Of a stretch of DNA of 64,000 bases, positions 25,406 to 35,768 are shown one piece after another. This stretch comes from Thiomonas sp. X19 (GTDB lineage Bacteria; Pseudomonadota; Gammaproteobacteria; Burkholderiales; Burkholderiaceae_C). The DNA lies in NCBI RefSeq assembly GCF_900089495.1, contig NZ_LT605203.1:4433944-4497943 (forward strand), read 5' to 3'. How positions within the stretch are numbered: position 1 is the first letter of the stretch; each line of letters begins with the position of its first letter. Both the position numbers and the translations under genes were made by a program. Under the pieces are notes generated by a model. The model made no database searches and was not told the origin of the DNA. It was given only the letters and a program-made list of their open reading frames with translations.

Positions 25406-25460
25406 GTGAACGACCTACTCTGCTGCTTTTTTGAGCAGCAGAGGACCAGGAGTGATCACC

Positions 25461-27005
25461 ATGGACATGATTGGCAGGATCCGGCATTTGCATGCCCGGA
25501 AGAACAAATCGGAGCGCGAGATTGCGCGCATGACAGGGCTCTCGCGCAACACGGTTGCGAAGTGGTTGCACGGCGAGGTGGACGGCCCACCGAAGTACCG
25601 GCGCGGAGAGCAGCCCAACAAGCTCACGGCGTTCCACGACGCGCTCAGGCAAGCGTTGAAGGCCGACGCGCGGCGGCCCAAACACGAGCGGCGCACGGCC
25701 AAAGCGCTGTACGCCGAGATCAGGCGCGCGGGCTATGAGGGTGGCTACACGCGGGTGACCGACTTCATCCGGGCGTGGCGCCAGGGCGAAGGCCAGGGGT
25801 CTGCGGTCAACGCTTTTGTGCCGCTGGCCTTCGAGCTGGGCGAAGCCTTCCAGTTCGACTGGAGCGAGGAAGGCATGGTGATTGGCGGCATCTACTACCG
25901 GGTGCAGGTCTCCCACATGAAGCTGTGCGCCAGTCGGGCCTTCTGGCTGGTGGCCTACCCCAGCCAGGGCCACGAGATGCTGTTCGATGCCCACACCCGG
26001 TCGTTCGCGGCGCTCGGCGGCGTGGCGCGCCGGGGCATCTATGACAACATGAAGACGGCCGTTGACAAGGTCAAGAAAGGCAAGGGACGCATCGTCAACG
26101 AGCGCTTTGCCACCATGTGCGCGCACTACCTGTACGACCCGGACTTCTGCAACGTGGCCAGTGGCTGGGAGAAAGGGGTGGTGGAGAAGAACGTGCAGGA
26201 CAGCCGTCGGCGCATCTGGACCTGCGCGGCCAAGATCAAGTTCGGCAGCTTCAGCGAACTCAACGCCTGGCTGGGCCAGCGCTGCCGCGCGTTGTGGGAC
26301 GAGGTGCGCCACCCCGAGCACACCCAGTTCAGCGTGGCCGAGATGCTCGAACACGAGCGCGCGCACCTCATGCCCATGCCGGTGCCGTTCGATGGCTACG
26401 TCGAGAAACCCGCGCGGGTCTCCAGCACCTGTCTGGTGTCGGTGGCGCGCAACCGCTACTCGGTGCCGTGCGAGCTGTTCGGCAAGCTGGTCAGCACGCG
26501 GCTGTACCCGGCCAGCGTGGTGGTCGTGGCCGACGACAGGATCGTGGCGCGCCACGACCGGCTGAGCAATGCTGGCGAGACCCGGTATGACTGGCAGCAC
26601 TACATCCCGCTGCTGCAGAGGAAGCCCGGCGCACTGAGGAACGGCGCGCCGTTTGCCGACATGCCCGAGCCTCTGCAGCGGCTGCGCAACCCGGGCGGCG
26701 ACCGTGTGATGGCGCAGGTGCTGGCCATCGTGCTCAGTGCCGGGCTGGACGCGGTGCTGGTGGCGGTGGAGTTGGCACTGGAGACCGGGCCGCCGGGCAA
26801 AGTCAGCGTGGAGCATGTGGTCAATGTGCTCGGGCGGTTGAACGCGGTGCCGGTGCCGCCGACGGCGGCCACGCCGTTGCAGGCGTCGACACCGCCGCGG
26901 GCCAACACAGCGCGCTATGACAGCCTGCGTACGGGCGGCGCCGAGCCCGCCACTGCGGACGTCGCCATCGACACCACCGAGGGGGCCGGCCATGACGCAG
27001 CGTGA
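25461..27005 (+). CDS. istA: IS21-family transposase IstA (element A)
   Basis: A 514-aa IS21 transposase. The N-terminal HTH reads KNKSEREIARMTGLSRNTVA. The DDE core has Asp in EAFQFDWSEEGMVIGG, Asp in RGIYDNMKTAVDKVKKGKG and Glu in WEKGVVEKNVQDSRRRIW. The C-terminal Mu-type domain holds VSVARNRYSVPCELFGKLV. ATG 25461 follows AGGAG at 8 nt. Its 3' end overlaps istB by 14 nt, the normal coupling. The protein is intact although its helper istB is destroyed. Confidence 0.92.
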   Translation: MDMIGRIRHLHARKNKSEREIARMTGLSRNTVAKWLHGEVDGPPKYRRGEQPNKLTAFHDALRQALKADARRPKHERRTAKALYAEIRRAGYEGGYTRVTDFIRAWRQGEGQGSAVNAFVPLAFELGEAFQFDWSEEGMVIGGIYYRVQVSHMKLCASRAFWLVAYPSQGHEMLFDAHTRSFAALGGVARRGIYDNMKTAVDKVKKGKGRIVNERFATMCAHYLYDPDFCNVASGWEKGVVEKNVQDSRRRIWTCAAKIKFGSFSELNAWLGQRCRALWDEVRHPEHTQFSVAEMLEHERAHLMPMPVPFDGYVEKPARVSSTCLVSVARNRYSVPCELFGKLVSTRLYPASVVVVADDRIVARHDRLSNAGETRYDWQHYIPLLQRKPGALRNGAPFADMPEPLQRLRNPGGDRVMAQVLAIVLSAGLDAVLVAVELALETGPPGKVSVEHVVNVLGRLNAVPVPPTAATPLQASTPPRANTARYDSLRTGGAEPATADVAIDTTEGAGHDAA

Positions 27006-27327
27006 CGTGACGGTCGAGCTCAAACAGCTGCGCCTGCACGGCATGGCCGGCGCCTGGGCCGATCTGGTCGAGCAAGGCGGCGGCGAGGCAGGCGGTGTGG
27101 GCATCGAGTCCTCACGCTGGCTGATCGAGCATCTGTTGCAGGCCGAAGGCACCGATCGTGCGATGCGCTCGGTCAGTCACCAGATGCACGCGGCGAAGTT
27201 CCCGGTGCACCGCGACATGGCGGGCTTTGACTTCGAGGTCTCGCCGGTGGACCGCAAGCTAGTGGAGACTCTGGCCACCACGGCCTTCACTGAGGAGGCG
27301 CACAACGTGGTGCTGGTGGGCGGGCCC
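26992..27327 (+). pseudogene. istB: istB (element A), 5' part, interrupted at Walker A
   Basis: This is the N-terminus of the IS21 helper ATPase: MTQRDVTVELKQLRLHGMAG... SRWLIEHLLQAEGTDRAMRS... EAHNVVLVGGP. Here it should continue GTGKTHLA, the P-loop. Instead, after the GGP codons, the sequence changes to that of the serine-recombinase element and the frame stops at 27342. The missing P-loop is found at 29922 on the far side of the insert. Confidence 0.88.
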
Positions 27328-27358
27328 GATCACGCGACATGATGCTCACCTCACCACG

Positions 27359-29431
27359 TTATTGAAGTTCAAGAGAAATCTGTCGAGGATCGTCTGGGAG
27401 CGGACGCACGCCAGGCGATGAGACCGATGCGCGGACCTCGGGACGCTGTAAATCGGCGGCCTTGATGGCCCAAGGCGCGCCCTTGCAGGCCTGCGTGGCG
27501 GGAAGTGTAGCGACGCTGATCATGCGCAGCACCGTCATCTTGCTCGTCCCGAGCGCTTCAGCGGCTTGCTCCAGAGTCAACTCACCACGCGCTTCGCGCT
27601 CTCCATTTTGGTAGACCGCAATGTGGTGGTCGCCGCGGAACGAACGCACCCGCATTTCCGTCCAGGTATGCCCTTTGCCAGTCCGGTGGCCGAGACGATT
27701 CAGCAACGAGGCGATGCCAGCGTCACCCAACTGGCGTGCGAGCTGCACGATCAGAACCTGGACCCCAACATCGGTGGTCCAGCGGTGCTGTCCCGTGCGG
27801 TTCTTCACCACGCTCAATTCGGTGTGGTCGCCTCCCTGCCAATGCATGACGAGTTCGATGCGCGCCTCGTCCACGCGCGCCACGATCTCCCTGATCACGC
27901 AGCGCAGGATGCGCTTGCGCACGGCGTTGCTGGCCGAAGGATGGGACCACACCCGCGGCAAGTCGGTGCCCAGGGCCATGAGGTCGTCGCGCTGCTGTGG
28001 CGTCAGGCTCCATTCGGTCACGGTCTGCAGCGTCTTGATCTCCGCCTCGCGCCGGGTAACCTCGGAGAGGCGCTCGTTCCAGCGCCGCTCAAGTTCGGCG
28101 GCCACCAGTCGATTGCCGGGGTCAACGGCGTCGAACTGCCGCTGCGCACGCGCCGCCTCAAAGCGCGCCTGCTCCAACGCGAGTTCGAGCTGGCGCCGCG
28201 TCGCGTGCTCATCGTTGGCATGGTGCTCGATGGCACGCAGTGCGGCCTGCACCCCAAGCGGCAGCAGCACGCTCAGCACTTCGCCGGAGACGGCCTCGTC
28301 CACGCGCAGCGAGCCGAAAGAAATGCATCCAGGCACCGCGCCATGATTGATCGCGGCCCCCTTGCAGTGATAGCGGGCGATGGTGCCGTCGCTGCCGCTG
28401 TAGGCGACGTGCAGCTTGCGACCACAGTGCGCGCATCGCAGCAACCCGGCCAGCAATGCCTCTCCGCGCCGGGGTGCGCCGCGCGCCATGCTGCCGCGCA
28501 TGTTGGTGTTGTCGGCGATCACGCGCTGGTTGTGCTCATAGGTCGGCCAATCAATGTACCCCTCGTGGTGCTCCTGGATCAAGACCTGCCAGTGCTCCTG
28601 GGCACGACGATGGCCGTGCACGACGCGCTTGCGGCCGGCTTCGATCCGGACGCGTGTCTCGGTGCGGCCAAACGCATAGGCGCCGGCATAGACGGGATTG
28701 GTGAGAATCTTGAGCACCGCGTTATAGACCGGCAGACGCCAGATCACGCAGCGCCGGCCGTTCTCGTAGACCGCCGAGGGCAGATCAATGCGCTCTTGTC
28801 GGAACCACAGCAGCGCCTGGCGCACGCTGCCGGCCTGTGCGAATCGACGGAACACGGCCGCGATCGCTTCGCGGATGCGCAGATCGGCGTCGCGTTCAAT
28901 CCGGTCGCCCTCGCTGCGCACATAGCCGATCGCCACCGTCGTGTGCAGATCACCCCGCGCCGCCTTGAGCTTGAGGGCTTCGACGGATCGTTGGCGAAGG
29001 AGGGACAACTCCATCTCCGACATCGTGCCCTTCATGCCCAGCAGCAACCGGTCGTTGACGCTGCGTGGATCATAAATGCCGTCTTCGTCGACGATGAGGC
29101 TGCCCACCAGTGCGCAGAATTCCAGCAGCGTGTGCCAGTCGCGACCGTTGCGTGCCAGGCGCGATGCCTCAATGGACACCACGGCGCCGACCTGGCCGCT
29201 GCAGATCGCCGCCAGCAGTCGCTCAAAGCCTGGCCGTGCGACGCCGCCGGCGGACACACCGAGGTCGTCGTCGATGACCACGACCTCGGTCCAACCGAGC
29301 GCGCGTGCCCGATCGGCCAGGGCGTATTGGCGCCGGCGACTCTCATGGTTGTGGCGCAACTGATCGGCTGTGGACTGGCGCACGTACACGTAGGCGCCAC
29401 GCGCCAAGTGCTCAGGGTTGATCTTGTTCAT
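27359..29431 (-). CDS. Large serine recombinase (recombinase family protein)
   Basis: A 690-aa site-specific recombinase. The N-terminal resolvase domain has the nucleophile serine in AYVYVRQSTADQ (about residue 20), plus VVVIDDDLGVSAGGVARPGF and SRLARNGRDWHTLLEF. It is followed by the recombinase domain (ILTNPVYAGAYAFGRTE), a zinc-ribbon (LLRCAHCGRKLHVAYSG) and a long coiled-coil. A C-terminal HTH (TLEQAAEALGTSKMTVLRMI) with a PWAIKAADL wing resembles an excisionase/MerR-type DNA-binding fold. The start after GGAGG at 29431 is preferred over the longer frame to 29452. It overlaps the 66-aa ORF by 20 nt. Confidence 0.9.
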   Translation of the reverse strand: MNKINPEHLARGAYVYVRQSTADQLRHNHESRRRQYALADRARALGWTEVVVIDDDLGVSAGGVARPGFERLLAAICSGQVGAVVSIEASRLARNGRDWHTLLEFCALVGSLIVDEDGIYDPRSVNDRLLLGMKGTMSEMELSLLRQRSVEALKLKAARGDLHTTVAIGYVRSEGDRIERDADLRIREAIAAVFRRFAQAGSVRQALLWFRQERIDLPSAVYENGRRCVIWRLPVYNAVLKILTNPVYAGAYAFGRTETRVRIEAGRKRVVHGHRRAQEHWQVLIQEHHEGYIDWPTYEHNQRVIADNTNMRGSMARGAPRRGEALLAGLLRCAHCGRKLHVAYSGSDGTIARYHCKGAAINHGAVPGCISFGSLRVDEAVSGEVLSVLLPLGVQAALRAIEHHANDEHATRRQLELALEQARFEAARAQRQFDAVDPGNRLVAAELERRWNERLSEVTRREAEIKTLQTVTEWSLTPQQRDDLMALGTDLPRVWSHPSASNAVRKRILRCVIREIVARVDEARIELVMHWQGGDHTELSVVKNRTGQHRWTTDVGVQVLIVQLARQLGDAGIASLLNRLGHRTGKGHTWTEMRVRSFRGDHHIAVYQNGEREARGELTLEQAAEALGTSKMTVLRMISVATLPATQACKGAPWAIKAADLQRPEVRASVSSPGVRPLPDDPRQISLELQ

Positions 29432-29612
29432 CGTCATCCTCCATGTGTTCAACGACGTCGGACTGACTTGCCACCTGCCACAGGAGTTGGCTCAGCAGTT
29501 CGACGAGGTCGTCGTGACGCTGCTGCAATCGCGTCAGTGGTGCTGGCGCCGTTGCGGCGTCGAACAGGTCGGCTTGCACGAGCGGGATCGCTCGCGGCGG
29601 GGTTGGCTTCAT
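29412..29612 (-). CDS. Small accessory ORF of the serine recombinase element
   Basis: 66 aa: an N-terminal MKPTPPRAIPLVQADLFD, then a helical stretch LTRLQQRHDDLVELLSQLLW and an acidic tail (EHMEDDDEQDQ). GGAGG lies just before the ATG at 29612. Its 3' end overlaps the recombinase start by 20 nt, so it is translationally coupled. No known family is recognised. A role as a helper or regulator of recombination is only a guess from position and size. Confidence 0.6.
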   Translation of the reverse strand: MKPTPPRAIPLVQADLFDAATAPAPLTRLQQRHDDLVELLSQLLWQVASQSDVVEHMEDDDEQDQP

Positions 29613-29883
29613 CGACGCCTCCGTGTGCCTGGGAAATGGTCGATGAACATAGGACTGCGTCGAGTTCGCCTCGCAGCGCAAGCAGGCAGCGCAGCAACAT
29701 CCGCGGAGGCCAGTGCGTGGGCACATCGCCGGCCGCAGGTAGTGTCATCCACTGCGGTAGATGCGCCCTCGTGCCGTCGGGCTGACGGACAATCAGGAAG
29801 TCTTCGGTTCCATGCCTGACTCGGCCGAGCACCTCAACTTCATGACCCGTCCGGGGATGGAACGGATAGTTGATGCGAGCCAG
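29449..29883 (-). CDS. DUF5372-like protein of the serine recombinase element
   Basis: The frame reads INYPFHPRTGHEVEVLGRVR and then HGTEDFLIVRQPDGTRAHLP, followed by QWMTLPAAG. This resembles the short DUF5372 proteins that accompany recombinases in similar elements. Conserved coding extends upstream of the GTG at 29832, but no ATG, GTG or TTG is seen before the element edge; the limit used is an in-frame CTG. Translation may begin at a non-standard codon. The C-terminal third overlaps the 66-aa ORF and is low-complexity. Confidence 0.5.
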   Translation of the reverse strand: MARINYPFHPRTGHEVEVLGRVRHGTEDFLIVRQPDGTRAHLPQWMTLPAAGDVPTHWPPRMLLRCLLALRGELDAVLCSSTISQAHGGVDEANPAASDPARASRPVRRRNGASTTDAIAAASRRPRRTAEPTPVAGGKSVRRR

Positions 29884-29921
29884 CTCGACGAGCTGTTCGC
29901 GGGCAGTATGTGACTGCTTCG

Positions 29922-30106
29922 CCTGGCACTGGAAAGACCCATCTGGCCACGGCCATGGGCGTCTCGGGCATCACCCGGCACGGCAAGCGGGTGCGGTTCT
30001 ACTCCACGGTCGATCTGGTCAACGCACTGGAGCAGGAGAAGGCCCAAGGCAGGGCCGGGCGCATCGCCACCAGCCTGCTGCGCATGGACCTCGTCATCCT
30101 CGACTC
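29922..30106 (+). pseudogene. istB: istB (element A), middle part, P-loop to Walker B
   Basis: Reads P-GTGKTHLATAMGVSGITRHG, KRVRFYSTVDLVNALEQEKA, then GRIATSLLRMDLVILD. This joins in sense to the 5' part of istB at 27327. It should continue with the Walker B acidic residue and the rest of the AAA+ domain, but at 30101-30106 the sequence becomes the RIT terminal repeat and stops in frame (S-C-stop). Confidence 0.88.
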
Positions 30107-30180
30107 ATGTTGAGTCGTTGGTTATGTGGAGTCCGCGACCAACCTCGGAGGGTCATGCACCGCCGCGAACTCCACATAAC
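30101..30180. repeat. RIT left terminal repeat and inner inverted box
   Basis: The outer 31-bp repeat (30101-30131) contains the palindrome GACTCA-TGT-TGAGTC, then GTTGGTTATGTGGAG. Inside, GTTATGTGGAGT (30121-30132) recurs exactly inverted as ACTCCACATAAC (30169-30180), ending 2 bp before the ritC stop. This arrangement suggests a core site plus an arm-like site for the recombinases. Confidence 0.8.
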
Positions 30181-30182
30181 AG

Positions 30183-31208
30183 TCAGAGCCGGCGAAGCCA
30201 ATCCACCAAGTTGACGCCGCCGAGCGCCAGGTTGCCGGCCTTCGGCGGGGCCAGCGCGTCTGGGAACACCTGAAGCAGCGCCTGTCGCTTGAGGTCCAAG
30301 TCAGCGCGCGCATACACCATCGTGGTGTTCAGGCTTGCGTGCCCGAGCCACTGGCTGATGCTGGCGAAGTCGACGCCAGCCTTGAGCAAATGAATCGCAG
30401 TGGTATGGCGGATCGAGTGCGGATGAATCGACTTGCCCGCCAGAGTTGCGGACTTGGACGCTGCATCGGTCAGGTAGCGCTGTAGGAGGTAACGAACGCC
30501 GAATCGCGTGAGCGGTTGGCCGCGTTGGTTGATAAACAGCGGAAGATCGTTCGCGTCCCCCTCGCGTGCCGTACACAGCGGACGTAAAAGGCTGGCGGTG
30601 GTCGCCCAGATTGGGCACACCCGGATCTTGTTTCCCTTGCCAGTCAATCGTACCTGCGCCGGGGCATCCAGACGAACGTCACGCGCCCTAAGGTCAAGGA
30701 TCTCCTGAACGCGTGCACCGGTGTTGAACATCAGCGCGAACAGTGCATAGTCGCGCCGTCCACGATCATCCGACCGATCAATCGCGTTGAGCAATTCGCG
30801 AACCTCATCATGCTCCAGATACTCAATCGGCGCGGTCTTGGCGCCGCGCTTGAAGGGCACAGCCAGCAACTCCTGCAGTGTGCCCATGTGCTGCGGATGC
30901 TCGGTGGCGAGGAACCGTGCCAGGGTATGCAGGGCGGCGAGCCGGGCATTGCGCGTGGCGATGCCGTTACCACGGCGGTCCTCCAGGCTGGACAAGAACT
31001 GAGTGACGCGTTCGGACCGGAGATCGTTGATCTCCAGACGTTCGACTCCGCGTCCGGCGTCCTGCGAGGCGAACCTCAGGAAGAGCACGATGGCGTCGCG
31101 ATAGCTTCGGATCGTATGGGTGCTTATCCCTCGCTGGTTGGGCAGATAGTCCTGGAAGAAGCGCACGAGCGCTCGCCCGAGGTTGTTCTGGTGGAAGGCT
31201 TCCATCAC
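30183..31208 (-). CDS. RIT tyrosine recombinase C
   Basis: A 341-aa tyrosine recombinase. N-terminal SAM-like core-binding domain: QDYLPNQRGISTHTIRSYRD. The catalytic domain has the first Arg in MFNTGARVQEILDLRARDVR, HxxR in IHPHSIRHTTAIHLLKAG, and His/Tyr in WLGHASLNTTMVYARADL. All catalytic residues are present. Its ATG overlaps the ritB stop by 4 nt. In RIT elements three different recombinases act together; which one cleaves which strand is not known. Confidence 0.9.
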   Translation of the reverse strand: MMEAFHQNNLGRALVRFFQDYLPNQRGISTHTIRSYRDAIVLFLRFASQDAGRGVERLEINDLRSERVTQFLSSLEDRRGNGIATRNARLAALHTLARFLATEHPQHMGTLQELLAVPFKRGAKTAPIEYLEHDEVRELLNAIDRSDDRGRRDYALFALMFNTGARVQEILDLRARDVRLDAPAQVRLTGKGNKIRVCPIWATTASLLRPLCTAREGDANDLPLFINQRGQPLTRFGVRYLLQRYLTDAASKSATLAGKSIHPHSIRHTTAIHLLKAGVDFASISQWLGHASLNTTMVYARADLDLKRQALLQVFPDALAPPKAGNLALGGVNLVDWLRRL

Positions 31209-32182
31209 GCCACCCCGCCCGATACCAAGCTGCCGAAGGCGGCCTCGAAGCGATCGCTGGCCGCCTGCGCGAGCTCGGGTATCCAGCGCAGGTAGTACGC
31301 CGTAGACACGATCGAGACGTGGCCCATGTACATCGCGAGCTTGGGCAGGTTCGACTGCACGTCAGCACCCTGGCGGTACCAGCGCAACAGACACTGGACA
31401 GCAAAGCTGTGGCGGAAGTCGTGCACGCGAGGTCGCCGCCCATCCCACCCTCGGACGTTCGCCGACTCGACCAATTCCTGCAACCCGGTGCTCAGGCCGG
31501 TGCCCGTGTAGCCATGGCAATGCCGTGTGCCGTGGCACAGCAAGGGCTGCGTCGGCGCTGACTCGCCCCATTGATGTTGGCGACGTAGGAGGTACACGCG
31601 CAGCTCTGCCCCTGCATCCTTGGATAGCGGCACCCACCGGGACTTGTGGAACTTGGACTCCCGAACACGCAGCACCGCGTCCAATGCGTTGACGTCGCCG
31701 AGTTGAAGGCGAAGCAGCTCACCGCGACGCAGTCCGGCTGTGTACAAGAGCACTGTGGCCAGCCGCAGAACGTCCGGTCGCAACGCCGAGTCCGGGGTCG
31801 GCCTGACCGCCTGCGCTGCGGCCAGCATGCGGCCGACCGCCGCCGGGGCGATGATGACGGGCGCCTTGTGAGGATGCGGCCTCGGGAACCGGTTCGGATC
31901 GGGAACAAAGCATGATGGCTCGCTGCGCTGGCGATACAGGCACCAGTTGCGAGCGATGCGCTGCCGGTTGCGGCGCACATTGCCGGTCAGGCCTTCATGC
32001 AATGCACACCATCGCTCGAACAAGTGGAGAGTCACATCGCGTTCGCCGGTTGCGCAGATAAAGTCGCGCAGCGAATGCAGGATGTTTTCTTCGGCGACGT
32101 AGGCCCGCCCCAACGCCCTCTGGCGTTCCAGATAGTCGGCGATGCTCCGACCAAACGCATTGCTTGATGTTGTTGATGACAT
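31205..32182 (-). CDS. RIT tyrosine recombinase B
   Basis: A 325-aa tyrosine recombinase. It has the first Arg in LLYTAGLRRGELLRLQLGDV, HxxR in RVHDFRHSFAVQCLLRW, and His/Tyr in YMGHVSIVSTAYYLRWIP. The N-terminal domain has SIADYLERQRALGRAYVAEE. It starts 9 bp after the ritA stop and overlaps ritC by 4 nt, so the trio is one coupled translation unit. Confidence 0.9.
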   Translation of the reverse strand: MSSTTSSNAFGRSIADYLERQRALGRAYVAEENILHSLRDFICATGERDVTLHLFERWCALHEGLTGNVRRNRQRIARNWCLYRQRSEPSCFVPDPNRFPRPHPHKAPVIIAPAAVGRMLAAAQAVRPTPDSALRPDVLRLATVLLYTAGLRRGELLRLQLGDVNALDAVLRVRESKFHKSRWVPLSKDAGAELRVYLLRRQHQWGESAPTQPLLCHGTRHCHGYTGTGLSTGLQELVESANVRGWDGRRPRVHDFRHSFAVQCLLRWYRQGADVQSNLPKLAMYMGHVSIVSTAYYLRWIPELAQAASDRFEAAFGSLVSGGVA

Positions 32183-32191
32183 GGCCGCCCC

Positions 32192-33394
32192 CTACACCGC
32201 TTGGGCCTGTGGAACAGGCAATGCCACATCACGCAGCGCGTCCAACTGCAGGCGAAGGTAGACGCATGTGCTCTCCAGGCCGCGATGACCGAGGACGTCG
32301 CCAATGGCCTTGATGCCAACACCTCGTTGCAGCAGACGCATCGCGAAGCTGTGGCGCAAGCAGTACGCCGAGGTTCCCTGCAACGCCAGCCCACTGCGCG
32401 CAGCACGGGTCTGGTAGAGATTGCACACGGCGGTGTGCTTGATCGCGCCTGAGGGGCCGCGAGCCCGCAGAAACAGCTCCGGCCGGGCGCTGCCGGTTCT
32501 GCCGGCCTTCAGATAGCGCTTGATGACGCCCAGGGTCCTATCGGCCAGCGGCAGCAGCAAGACCGATCGAGTCTTGCGCTGCTCGACACGCAGAGTCTTC
32601 GCTTGCCAGTCGATGGCGTCCATGCGAAGCGAGGCGACTTCGCATGGACGCAAGCCGTAGTGCGCCATCAAATATAGGATCGTGTAGTCGCGCCAGCCCG
32701 TTGACTGCTTGCGGTCGATTGAATGCAGCAGTGCCTGCATGGTCGCCCACGGGATCGCTCTTGGCGGTAATTCGCCGCGATACACGCGCGGCGAGTCGAT
32801 GGCATCCAGGCGTACGGTCAACAGGCCCCGCATGTGACAGAACCGAAAAAACGAGCGCAGGCGAGCGACCCATTGCTGCAGGCTCTGGCGGCTGATGCGC
32901 TTGCCGGTTGCGACCACGTGGCGCTCGATCTGCTCTCGCGTCAGATCGCTGACATCCAAACCGGCTGACAGAGTCTCTTCGAGGAAGGCCGCAACCGTCG
33001 AGACGTGTTGCGCCACCGTCGGTGGACTCAACCCGCGAACGGCATTGAGGTGGTCACGATAGGCATCGAGAACCTGGGCATGCGGCCGGGCGTCGGTCTC
33101 CGGCCGCCACCTGCCTTGATCTGCCAGACATCGCGCGAACGCACGCCGTGTGGCGGCGAACAATACTCCGCCCGGTGCGGTAGCGAAGACCCGATCCAAA
33201 TCGGCGCGGGCCAACATTGAAGCCAGAGGTTCGTCCCCCAGTTCCAGAATCTGTCGCAGCCTGCGGACATGGCACTGGACCACATCGTGACGGTAGCCAG
33301 TGTCGGCCAACCATCCCGCGAACAACTCCAACTCATCGCCAAACGGCGACGCAACATAGCGCCGGTGGTACTTCGGGAAGATCTGCTCAAGCAT
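32192..33394 (-). CDS. RIT tyrosine recombinase A
   Basis: A 400-aa tyrosine recombinase, the longest and first of the trio. The catalytic domain has the first Arg in LMAHYGLRPCEVASLRMDAI, HxxR in AYCLRHSFAMRLLQRGVG, and His/Tyr in VLGHRGLESTCVYLRL. The start chosen is the ATG at 33394, behind GGAGG (start MLEQIFPKYHRRY), rather than the longer frame to 33427. It begins about 110 bp inside the right end of the element. Confidence 0.9.
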   Translation of the reverse strand: MLEQIFPKYHRRYVASPFGDELELFAGWLADTGYRHDVVQCHVRRLRQILELGDEPLASMLARADLDRVFATAPGGVLFAATRRAFARCLADQGRWRPETDARPHAQVLDAYRDHLNAVRGLSPPTVAQHVSTVAAFLEETLSAGLDVSDLTREQIERHVVATGKRISRQSLQQWVARLRSFFRFCHMRGLLTVRLDAIDSPRVYRGELPPRAIPWATMQALLHSIDRKQSTGWRDYTILYLMAHYGLRPCEVASLRMDAIDWQAKTLRVEQRKTRSVLLLPLADRTLGVIKRYLKAGRTGSARPELFLRARGPSGAIKHTAVCNLYQTRAARSGLALQGTSAYCLRHSFAMRLLQRGVGIKAIGDVLGHRGLESTCVYLRLQLDALRDVALPVPQAQAV

Positions 33395-33444
33395 GGTGAC
33401 CTCCATGGCCGTCAAAGGGACGGTCAAGGTAGGCCTACACCACG

Positions 33445-33532
33445 GTTATGTTGAGTTCATCGTCACCGTCGGTGAGGCGGGACATGCGTCGCGTCCCGTA
33501 GCTTCACATAACCAACGACTCAACATGAGTCG
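33445..33532. repeat. RIT right terminal repeat and inner inverted box
   Basis: The outer repeat (33502-33532) is the complement of the left one with two mismatches, again containing the GACTCA-TGT-TGAGTC palindrome. An inner box GTTATGTTGAGT (33445-33456) is inverted relative to the ACATAAC of the outer repeat, with more mismatches than on the left. Confidence 0.78.
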
Positions 33533-34032
33533 ATCAGCAGCAGGTCGAGCTTGGCCAGTTGCGTCATGCGGCGCGCGTAGCTGCCGTCGCCGTGGGCGAC
33601 CTGCAGTTCGTCGAACAGGCGCGCGGCGCGCGTGTACAGCACCGCGAAGCCCGAGCGCGCGGCCTGATGCGCCAGGGCGCAGCCCAGCCAAGTCTTGCCG
33701 CAACCGGTGGCGCCGGTGATGAGCAGGTTCTGCGCGTGGCGCAACCAGTCGCCGCCGGCCAGGTTGGCGATGAGATGGCGATCCAGGCCGCGGCTGGCAC
33801 GCCAGTTGATGTCCTCCACGCAGGCGGCGCCGACCTTGAGCTTGGCGGCCTTGAGCAGGCGCTGCATGCGGCGGTCGTCACGCCAGGCGATCTCGCTCTG
33901 CACGAGCAGCGTGAGCCTCTCGTCGAAGCCCAGCGCGGCCGCCGCCGTGCTGCTGGCCTGGTCCGTCAAGGCGTGGACCATGCCGTCCAGGCGCAGCTCG
34001 CGCAGTTGGTTCAGGGTGTGTTCATTCAACAT
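33527..34032 (-). pseudogene. istB: istB (element B), truncated at Walker B
   Basis: The first about 168 aa of an IS21 helper ATPase. The N-terminal domain has MLNEHTLNQLRELRLDGMVH; Walker A is ITGATGCGKTWLGCALAHQA. It then reaches QLAKLDLLLID, where Walker B should read D(E/D)xG, and the RIT repeat begins, giving S-C-stop. It differs strongly from istB of element A, so the two IS21s are distinct subtypes cut at the same codon. Confidence 0.88.
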
Positions 34033-34044
34033 CGTTCCTCTCCG

Positions 34045-35589
34045 TCAGTGGTGGTAGTAATCGGCGCCGCGCACGTTCTCGTGCTCGGGCAAGGCGGTGG
34101 ACGCCGCGGTGGGGGGCGAGGCGTGCTGGCGATCGAGCCCGCTCTTGAGGATCGAGGCCACGCTGCGGTAGGTCGGCGAGCGGATCGCCAGCGCCCTGGT
34201 GCAGGCGGCTTCCAGGCGCGCCGGCGTGTACTCGCGCGCCAGGCGCTGCAGCCCCAGGCAGGCGCGGTAGCCCTGCTCGGGATGCGGGCGGTGCTCGAGC
34301 TGCCAGGTCACGACGCCGGCGGCGGCCACGCCGATGCGCCGCCCCCAGGCGATGAGCTTGGCCGGGGTCCATTCCAGGTGCGCGCGGTGCGACGCTGGCA
34401 TGTGCTCAGGGATGGTGGTGTGGTGGCCGCGGCGGGTGTCCAGGGCATGGCAGGCCACGCGCTGGTTGGCGTGGAAGATCTCCAGCAGCCCGGCGCCCAT
34501 GCGCATCTCGACCGCGCCGCCGACCAGTCGGTGCGGCACGCTGTAGTAATGGCCCTCGAACTCAACGTGATAGTCGACGTTGACCTTGGCCTGCTTCCAA
34601 CTGCCAATCGCATAGCGCGTGGCCGGCAGCGGCGAGAGCGCGGGGGCGTCGAGCGCCAGGAAGGCCTCGCGCCGGCAGCCGGGAAGCTTCTGGAACGGGC
34701 GCAGGTTCAGATCGGCAATGAGTTCGGCGATCGCCGCATTGAGTTCGACCAGGCTGAAGAAGCGGCGGTTGCGCAGCCGCGCCAGAATCCAGCGCTCCAC
34801 CAGCAACACCGCACCCTCGACCTTGGGCTTATCCCTCGGATGTGCCGGGCGCGCGGCCAGCAGCGCGCAGCCGTAATGGTTGGCGAACTCCTCGTAGGTG
34901 CGGTTGGGCAGCGGGTCGTAGTTGTCGGGGTGCTTGATCAGGGCGCGCGCCTGGTCGGGCACGATCAGCCGCGGCACGCCGCCGAAGAACTCCAGCGCCT
35001 GAACCTGAGCGCCGATCCAGTCGGCGGTGGTCTGGCGCGGCGTGGCGCAGGCGTAGGTGTAGCTCGACGCCCCCAGCGTGGCCACGAAGATCTGTGCGGC
35101 GCTGATCTCGCCGGTGGTCGCGTCGATGATCGGCACCGTCTGCCCGGCGTAGTCGACGAACAGCTTCTCGCCGGCCACATGTACCTGGCGCATCGAGCGC
35201 TTGAGGCTCTGGGCCCACTCGCGGTACTTGATGCAAAAGCTCGTGTACTTGTAGGCCAGCGCATTGCCCTGGGCGTACTCCTCCCACAGCAGCAGAAGCG
35301 TCACGCCAGGGCGCTTGATCTCTTGGTGGATGGCGGCGAAATCGGGGGTGAGCTGATAGCTGGCGCGCGGCACCGGCGGGCGAAACAGGCGCCCCTCCAG
35401 TTCGGCGTCGGTCAGCGTCTGGGCCACTGCCCAGTCCACCCCGGCCACGCGGGCCAGCGACACGTACTTGCCCACCACGCTCTTGGACATCTTGAGCGCG
35501 CGGGCCACCTCGCTGTAGGTCAACCCAGCCTGCAGGTGCAGGCGTAATGCCTCTCGGATCTGGCGCATCGTGATTCTTGTTGTGGGCAT
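34045..35589 (-). CDS. istA: IS21-family transposase IstA (element B)
   Basis: A 514-aa transposase. HTH: AGLTYSEVARALKMSKSVVG. The DDE core has Asp in GEKLFVDYAGQTVPIIDATT, the second Asp region in VPRLIVPDQARALIKHPDNY and Glu in HPRDKPKVEGAVLLVERWIL. The C-terminal region VNVDYHVEFEGHYYSVPHRL is the usual Mu-transposase C domain. It resembles element A only at fold level. It ends 12 bp before istB. The coding sequence looks complete, but the partner ATPase is broken. Confidence 0.92.
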   Translation of the reverse strand: MPTTRITMRQIREALRLHLQAGLTYSEVARALKMSKSVVGKYVSLARVAGVDWAVAQTLTDAELEGRLFRPPVPRASYQLTPDFAAIHQEIKRPGVTLLLLWEEYAQGNALAYKYTSFCIKYREWAQSLKRSMRQVHVAGEKLFVDYAGQTVPIIDATTGEISAAQIFVATLGASSYTYACATPRQTTADWIGAQVQALEFFGGVPRLIVPDQARALIKHPDNYDPLPNRTYEEFANHYGCALLAARPAHPRDKPKVEGAVLLVERWILARLRNRRFFSLVELNAAIAELIADLNLRPFQKLPGCRREAFLALDAPALSPLPATRYAIGSWKQAKVNVDYHVEFEGHYYSVPHRLVGGAVEMRMGAGLLEIFHANQRVACHALDTRRGHHTTIPEHMPASHRAHLEWTPAKLIAWGRRIGVAAAGVVTWQLEHRPHPEQGYRACLGLQRLAREYTPARLEAACTRALAIRSPTYRSVASILKSGLDRQHASPPTAASTALPEHENVRGADYYHH

Positions 35590-35653: not shown

Positions 35654-35768
35654 CGTCCACGATCACGCTGAAACAGCGTCCACGATCAGTCTGAAACGCC
35701 GTCCACGATCACGCTGAAATCGCGTCCACGATCAGCCTGAAATGCCGTCCACGATGGGCTGAAATACG
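35654..35768. repeat. Five tandem 23-bp repeats at the IS21-B terminus
   Basis: CGTCCACGATCA(C/G)(G/T/C)CTGAAA units start at 35654, 35677, 35700, 35723 and 35746, exactly 23 bp apart; the last is degenerate and joins IS1380 sequence. They lie upstream of istA where IS21 elements carry transposase-binding repeats, but five in strict register is more than the two or three commonly described. Confidence 0.85.

Follow-up and report, generated by a model that had tools for sequence, protein, structure and literature searches.

The window analysed here is a stretch of 64,000 nucleotides from Thiomonas sp. X19 (assembly GCF_900089495.1, contig NZ_LT605203.1, positions 4,433,944 to 4,497,943), in which an element of the RIT (recombinase in trio) type lies between two broken istB genes belonging to two IS21 insertion sequences, designated IS21-A (left) and IS21-B (right). 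RITs consist of three adjacent tyrosine recombinase genes in about 3.4-3.5 kb with terminal inverted repeats, and the element in the window is a RIT: it is 3424 bp long (about 3.5 kb is given for RITs), its three adjacent tyrosine recombinase genes stand in the order ritA-ritB-ritC, which is kept in its relatives, and it ends in an inverted repeat of 45 nt (84% complementary; about 28-34 bp is given for RITs) with TCATGTTGAGTCGTTGGTTATGTG common to both ends. The ritB and ritC reading frames overlap by 4 bp and ritA stops 9 bp short of ritB, compared with overlaps of 4-8 bp given for RITs. The gene names were assigned from gene order. A DNA search for a second copy of this RIT in its own genome found none.

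At the left junction istB-A reads ATG GAC CTC GTC ATC CTC GAC followed by TCA TGT TGA (MDLVILD-S-C-stop; final istB-A base 30104), and at the right junction, on the minus strand, istB-B reads CTC GAC CTG CTG CTG ATC GAC followed by TCA TGT TGA (LDLLLID-S-C-stop; final istB-B base 33529). Each istB end runs into the identical RIT end (Asp-Ser-Cys-stop), as an earlier note on this DNA had described. The PF01695 (IstB_IS21) matches of both halves stop at profile position 160, the Walker B aspartate, so the cut codons are homologous and the objection that the two ends might fall at non-homologous codons fails; the NF038214 score of istB-B (156 bits) is under the 200-bit cut-off, as expected for half a gene. 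The flanks were also correctly recognised in the earlier note as converging 5' halves of two different IS21 elements, which are only distantly related (IstA 23% identical; IstB pieces 26% identical over 106 aa), and neither istB 3' half adjoins the RIT. The coordinates of all features are given in Table 1.

Table 1. Features of the RIT and of the flanking IS21 elements in the window
Feature	Position	Strand	Basis
RIT element, Y to Y' (3424 bp)	30105..33528	-	ends from comparison with relatives and their empty sites
ritA, tyrosine recombinase, 411 aa	32192..33427	-	ORF; XerC/XerD-type matches below family cut-offs
ritB, tyrosine recombinase, 325 aa	31205..32182	-	ORF; XerC/XerD-type matches below family cut-offs
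ritC, tyrosine recombinase, 341 aa	30183..31208	-	ORF; XerC/XerD-type matches below family cut-offs
RIT end, ritC side, TCATGTTGAGTCGTTGGTTATGTG	30105..30128	+	end sequence; inverted-repeat pair
RIT end, ritA side, TCATGTTGAGTCGTTGGTTATGTG inverted	33505..33528	-	end sequence; inverted-repeat pair
6-bp spacer CTCGAC at istB-A junction (codons L-D)	30099..30104	+	end comparison
6-bp spacer ATCGAC at istB-B junction (codons I-D)	33529..33534	-	end comparison
istA of IS21-A	25431..27005	+	NF033546 transpos_IS21, 323 bits
istB-A first piece, up to Walker A (right boundary approximate)	26992..27326	+	PF01695 2-101; comparison with intact copy
serine-recombinase element inside istB-A at Walker A (approximate bounds; CDS 27359-29452)	27326..29920	-	stretches of identical element DNA at further istB sites in the genome
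istB-A second piece, Walker A to Walker B	29921..30104	+	PF01695 98-160
istB-B 5' half, ending at Walker B	33529..34032	-	NF038214, 156 bits; PF01695 62-160
istA of IS21-B	34045..35589	-	NF033546, 272 bits

Comparison of the window RIT with its relatives makes it very probable that this group of RITs inserts at one Walker B codon of transposon AAA+ ATPase genes. Relatives were gathered by a RitC search of genome contigs (30 loci) and, among plasmids, by DNA (43 records) and by RitA (45 records, with the regions of 20 of these fetched); a RitA genome survey, which included the own genome, gave 6 of 399 at the family level (E 1e-40), 2 of 399 at the order level and 1 of 398 at the phylum level (both E 1e-60), and a RitC scan of viral contigs gave no match. 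From the 30 RitC loci, L027-L033 (weak matches, 26-51% over parts), L024 (a distant RIT with ends that could not be assigned) and L025 (which repeats C. necator copies) were left out. The end search covered 42 loci, eight of which (C. necator L011-L017 and L022) were set aside as repeats of L009/L010, leaving 34 RIT copies; 33 of these had a readable end and one (L074) had none. Ends could not be assigned to any target in L067 and L078, both distant RITs, nor in L021 and L076.

A location in Walker B was found for 29 of the 33 readable copies (in L006 the spacer and two further bases are all that precede the contig end). A Pfam scan was performed on 27 of the 28 5' junctions (the 28th, L010, repeats L009), and 24 gave PF01695 matches ending at position 160 (that of L007 just below the cut-off), while the remaining three gave PF13401 (AAA_22) matches ending at 91; the targets in C. 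necator and Caballeronia are AAA_22 ATPases instead of IstB. Among the 13 of 21 3' sides which were scanned, 12 begin at PF01695 position 159 and one at PF13401 position 90 (below the cut-off), and the translated 3' sides start with [LI]D[DE] in 20 of 21 cases, L006 being the exception as it halts at the contig end. The 5' and 3' halves have two profile positions in common, which correspond to the two codons making up a 6-bp spacer. The 5' halves of at least 66 aa (n=27; L007 out, L010 in) fall into 14 groups at 70% amino acid identity. As istB is common (12 matches in the own genome, some of them pieces of one gene), random hits on IS21 genes, with the shared codon a coincidence or an assembly fault, might be supposed; this is contradicted by the 27 of 27 scanned 5' junctions that end at the homologous codon of their family, by the same finding in plasmids deposited as complete and by its recurrence in two ATPase families, and we consider such an explanation extremely improbable.

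The search for intact istB genes that had been proposed along with this flank count identified empty sites in Bradyrhizobium, S. meliloti GR4 and C. necator. The Bradyrhizobium plasmid bearing L053 also carries an intact istB which is identical to the RIT flanks over 500 + 250 bp, and the 6-bp spacer is present as a single copy in the intact gene, compared to a copy on both sides in the filled one. The counterpart of L055 in S. meliloti GR4 has 2 mismatches in 500 bp and 3 in 250 bp. In C. necator UYPR2.512 the 5' half of the ATPase gene occurs 12 times; one copy (L133) is unbroken and each of the other 11 meets a RIT, five at the ritA end and six at the ritC end, with some of the RITs split by other insertions or partial. 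The empty L133 and the filled L010 are completely identical over 1500 bp upstream, with the first downstream mismatch at 654 bp. On the Mycetohabitans plasmid (L064) both flanks have intact counterparts (99.5% and 97%), with no mismatches within 20 bp of the junction. The supposition that the istB 5' fragments are cargo, and the flanks thus part of the RIT, would suit a window in which both flanks are 5' halves; the 14 ATPase groups among the 5' flanks, the normal copies with 5' and 3' ATPase halves and the existence of empty sites contradict it, and leave it with next to no likelihood.

More distant RITs sit elsewhere. L068, L070 and L077 cut IstA, with the palindrome described below on the 5'-half side; the rve matches of the three cut proteins are below the cut-off and end at the cut or within two residues of it, and the residue cut is presumably the second catalytic aspartate. 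L069 cuts an IS66 transposase between PF03050 positions 136 and 137. RITs outside the group of the window RIT, as far as these sequences go, have other conserved-codon targets, with one to three examples each, and istB is therefore not the landing site of all RITs. The proposal in the earlier note that RITs in general insert at istB Walker B codons was accordingly too wide, given these distant copies, and also too narrow, given the AAA_22 targets, and holds for the 29 of 33 related copies; likewise, istB as a dedicated landing site stands for relatives of the window RIT, set against IstA (three cases), an IS66 transposase (one case), a putative ParB-like gene and a putative tyrosine recombinase gene elsewhere.

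A normal insertion has the layout 5'half-s1-Y...Y'-s2-X'X-s3-3'half, where s1, s2 and s3 are 6-bp spacers and X'X is a 20-bp palindrome, e.g. TAATGTTGAGCTCAACATTA. The palindrome adjoins the RIT at 21 ends, always toward the 3'-half side, whichever way the RIT lies, and at 0 of 28 5' junctions; 6-10 of its 10 half-positions match at these 21 ends, compared to at most 4 at every other end, and a 3' half joined to a RIT without X'X was found for neither RIT end. As the empty sites are without X'X, it is brought by the RIT. X'X, present at one end of the normal relatives, is absent beside the window RIT; PMC3414803 mentions an overlapping palindrome near RIT ends, though not as a defining feature, and prints no sequence for it. 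Y'-s2-X' also forms a core site, a mirror image of the core used on insertion, and on this comparison a RIT retains, once integrated, a second and unused core at the 3'-half end. All 21 of the s2 spacers fit [ACT]T[ACGT]GA[CT], a pattern with a probability of 0.006 for a random hexamer at equal base frequencies, and s2 is therefore probably a footprint left by a previous Walker B target. The orientation of the RIT is free, with the ritA end at the 5' half 13 times and the ritC end 15 times (the non-ATPase end of L060 left out), and the RITs of L054 and L055 lie opposite ways round in closely similar istB genes.

A palindrome was also seen apart from any RIT: at L089 of C. necator UYPR2.512 (G1151:C9:246324), X'X with one mismatch is joined to the 3' half of a different ATPase, and its other side is cut by a putative IS630-type transposase element.

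At five loci (L057, L060, L061, L062 and L063) an IS91-like element or remnant abuts one RIT end at an edge of the second-core spacer. The inserts at L060 and L062 are annotated as a site-specific integrase plus an IS91 family transposase, and those at L057, L061 and L063 match by DNA. The spacer lies beyond the insert in L057, L062 and L063 and with the RIT in L060, while the RIT arm of L061 is partly lost. Beyond the insert, X'X and the istB 3' half follow in four of the five (L057 and L061-L063; far sides L144-L147), the far side of L060 not having been read, and in Mesorhizobium AR07 the same istB 3' side is present both with and without the IS91-like insert. From these alignments the second core serves as an insertion point for another element, and a reading of the odd flanks as off-target junctions was rejected. 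The five RITs also form a three-layer nest, with an IS91-like element or remnant in a RIT in an IS21.

The joining of two 5' halves without X'X was seen in two cases, the window RIT and L064. Our preferred account, to which we give a probability of roughly 55% as a whole chain, combines the Walker B target, the double core and a recombination at the second core. The tyrosine recombinases would integrate the RIT by exchange across the 6-bp spacer, which encodes the hydrophobic-Asp pair of Walker B directly 5' of the Asp/Glu codon. Since the mobile unit carries X'X, a RIT circle would hold two identical inverted cores (X-[6]-Y); one of them would be used on insertion, which would explain why either orientation occurs, and the other stays intact at the 3'-half end. 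In the window, this second core would then have recombined with the Walker B site of another istB, so that the RIT became joined to istB-B, and the reciprocal product, 3'half-X'X-3'half, would have been lost, as in a deletion.

Alternatively, istB-A and istB-B may each have taken up a RIT of its own, the two lying in opposite orientation relative to the gene and as direct repeats, between which homologous RIT x RIT recombination deleted the intervening stretch. This has the same target rule and differs in the last step only. Direct repeats can arise, as both orientations occur in targets (13 ritA-end, 15 ritC-end) and many copies per genome are possible; on the other hand, one RIT only was found in the own genome, and although C. 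necator has 11 RIT-filled copies facing both ways, the 5'-5' product was seen in none of its seven loci with both ends read. When junction A (the istB-A junction) was compared with the intact L037 of the own genome, four mismatches were found (30092-30101), all within 13 bp of the RIT, with the rest of 1689 bp identical; at three of the four sites junction A agrees with L121, another istB allele. A 6-bp exchange leaves this patch unaccounted for. The patch fits an exchange with a different istB::RIT allele and hints that homologous exchange took part at junction A at least once. We regard the two-insertion history as a serious possibility which falls somewhat short of an even chance. The earlier note had likewise proposed two insertions which then recombined. 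That history leads to the product seen, as does a recombination between the second core and another istB. We lean slightly to the latter, since normal copies possess the core and another element is found inserted at it.

Several points weigh against the preferred account. All of the evidence is comparative and no recombination event was observed, and homologous recombination of two opposite insertions yields an identical final product; the mismatch patch at junction A belongs here as well. The reciprocal 3'-X'X-3' product was sought without success in the own genome (one palindrome form, with up to 3 mismatches allowed) and in the Mycetohabitans plasmid, and X'X with a Walker B tail was not matched exactly anywhere in the viral contigs; these searches did not extend to further genomes or to other forms of the palindrome. 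As to the target rule, four of the 33 readable copies are not placed in Walker B, namely L021 and L076 (target gene not identified), L065, which is in a putative ParB-like gene without a match in the Pfam scan, and L026, which is at the putative catalytic-Tyr codon of a tyrosine recombinase; the counts are of copies and not of independent events, as L009 and L010 share a single target gene and several istB genes are near-identical. The 11 palindromes of C. necator comprise 10 at one per RIT and that of L089, which has an IS rather than a second 3' half on its other side. Two istB fragments in the own genome, L039 and L043, were considered as the missing 3' halves and rejected.

The passages of PMC3414803 and PMC2864759 consulted here describe RIT insertions in a Tn6049-like transposase gene, in IS66 tnpA and in radC and mention an overlapping palindrome; they contain no target rule and state that RIT ends do not fit usual recombinase sites. 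RIT target specificity and movement are listed as untested in the part of PMC10214605 available to us, and in that of PMC8138268 RitA is given two core-binding domains. Among the titles and abstracts found, none dealt with RITs targeting istB or a Walker B codon; since Ricker 2013, the main survey of RITs, was not covered, the rule may already have been published. In contrast to described RITs, the present ones show a single-codon target and a double core, the window copy being without X'X; the analysis yields the one-codon target rule, the empty site, the defined mobile unit and the double-core architecture. Together, target rule and double core would explain why RIT ends looked variable and a misfit to usual recombinase sites in the sections of PMC3414803 concerned.

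SE and GInt elements also have several tyrosine recombinase-type genes, and SEs carry a 6-bp footprint from the old to the new site (PMC10214605, in part); they differ in having four conserved genes including Tfp/GinC and Srap/GinD, where three lie between the RIT ends, and an X'X double core is not described for them in the same portion of PMC10214605. A 6-bp footprint is likewise attributed there to the Tn554 family. That family has a TnpA/TnpB/TnpC organisation, whereas the window RIT is without a fourth or a TnpC-like gene and has no room for TnpC, as all three of its genes give tyrosine recombinase matches. Prophages and islands found in tRNA genes integrate at the bases that are best conserved in a common gene. 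RITs resemble them in mode of integration and differ in that they hit the active-site codons of proteins of other mobile elements and break the gene. By landing on Walker B, a RIT would be expected to disable the helper ATPase of IS21 or of a related transposon, which would amount to parasitism of transposon on transposon. Tentatively, in a view that we hold almost as likely to be right as wrong, RITs may be hyperparasites of transposons and take active-site codons in recombination genes for their attachment sites, the codon differing from clade to clade, and the permanently armed second core could permit a flip in place, offer a landing site to a third element or weld two targets together as in the window.

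The istB-A gene is broken twice: the RIT occupies Walker B, and a large-serine-recombinase element of 2.6 kb lies upstream at Walker A. This element also occupies the Walker A codons of a second, different istB of the own genome, the DNA being identical over the compared stretches of 1.5 kb (loci concerned, besides the window: G000:C3:2229997, L037, and G000:C3:2164378-2167676, L044/L040). An istB of Paraburkholderia sabiae (L063) has a recombinase which is 61% identical over 589 aa at Walker A, plus a RIT at Walker B. Beside istA of IS21-B, at 35654-35768 of the window, a 23-bp unit stands in four tandem copies with a consensus of about CGTCCACGATCA.CTGAAA, and these units are probably terminal repeats of IS21-B, of a kind known for IS21.

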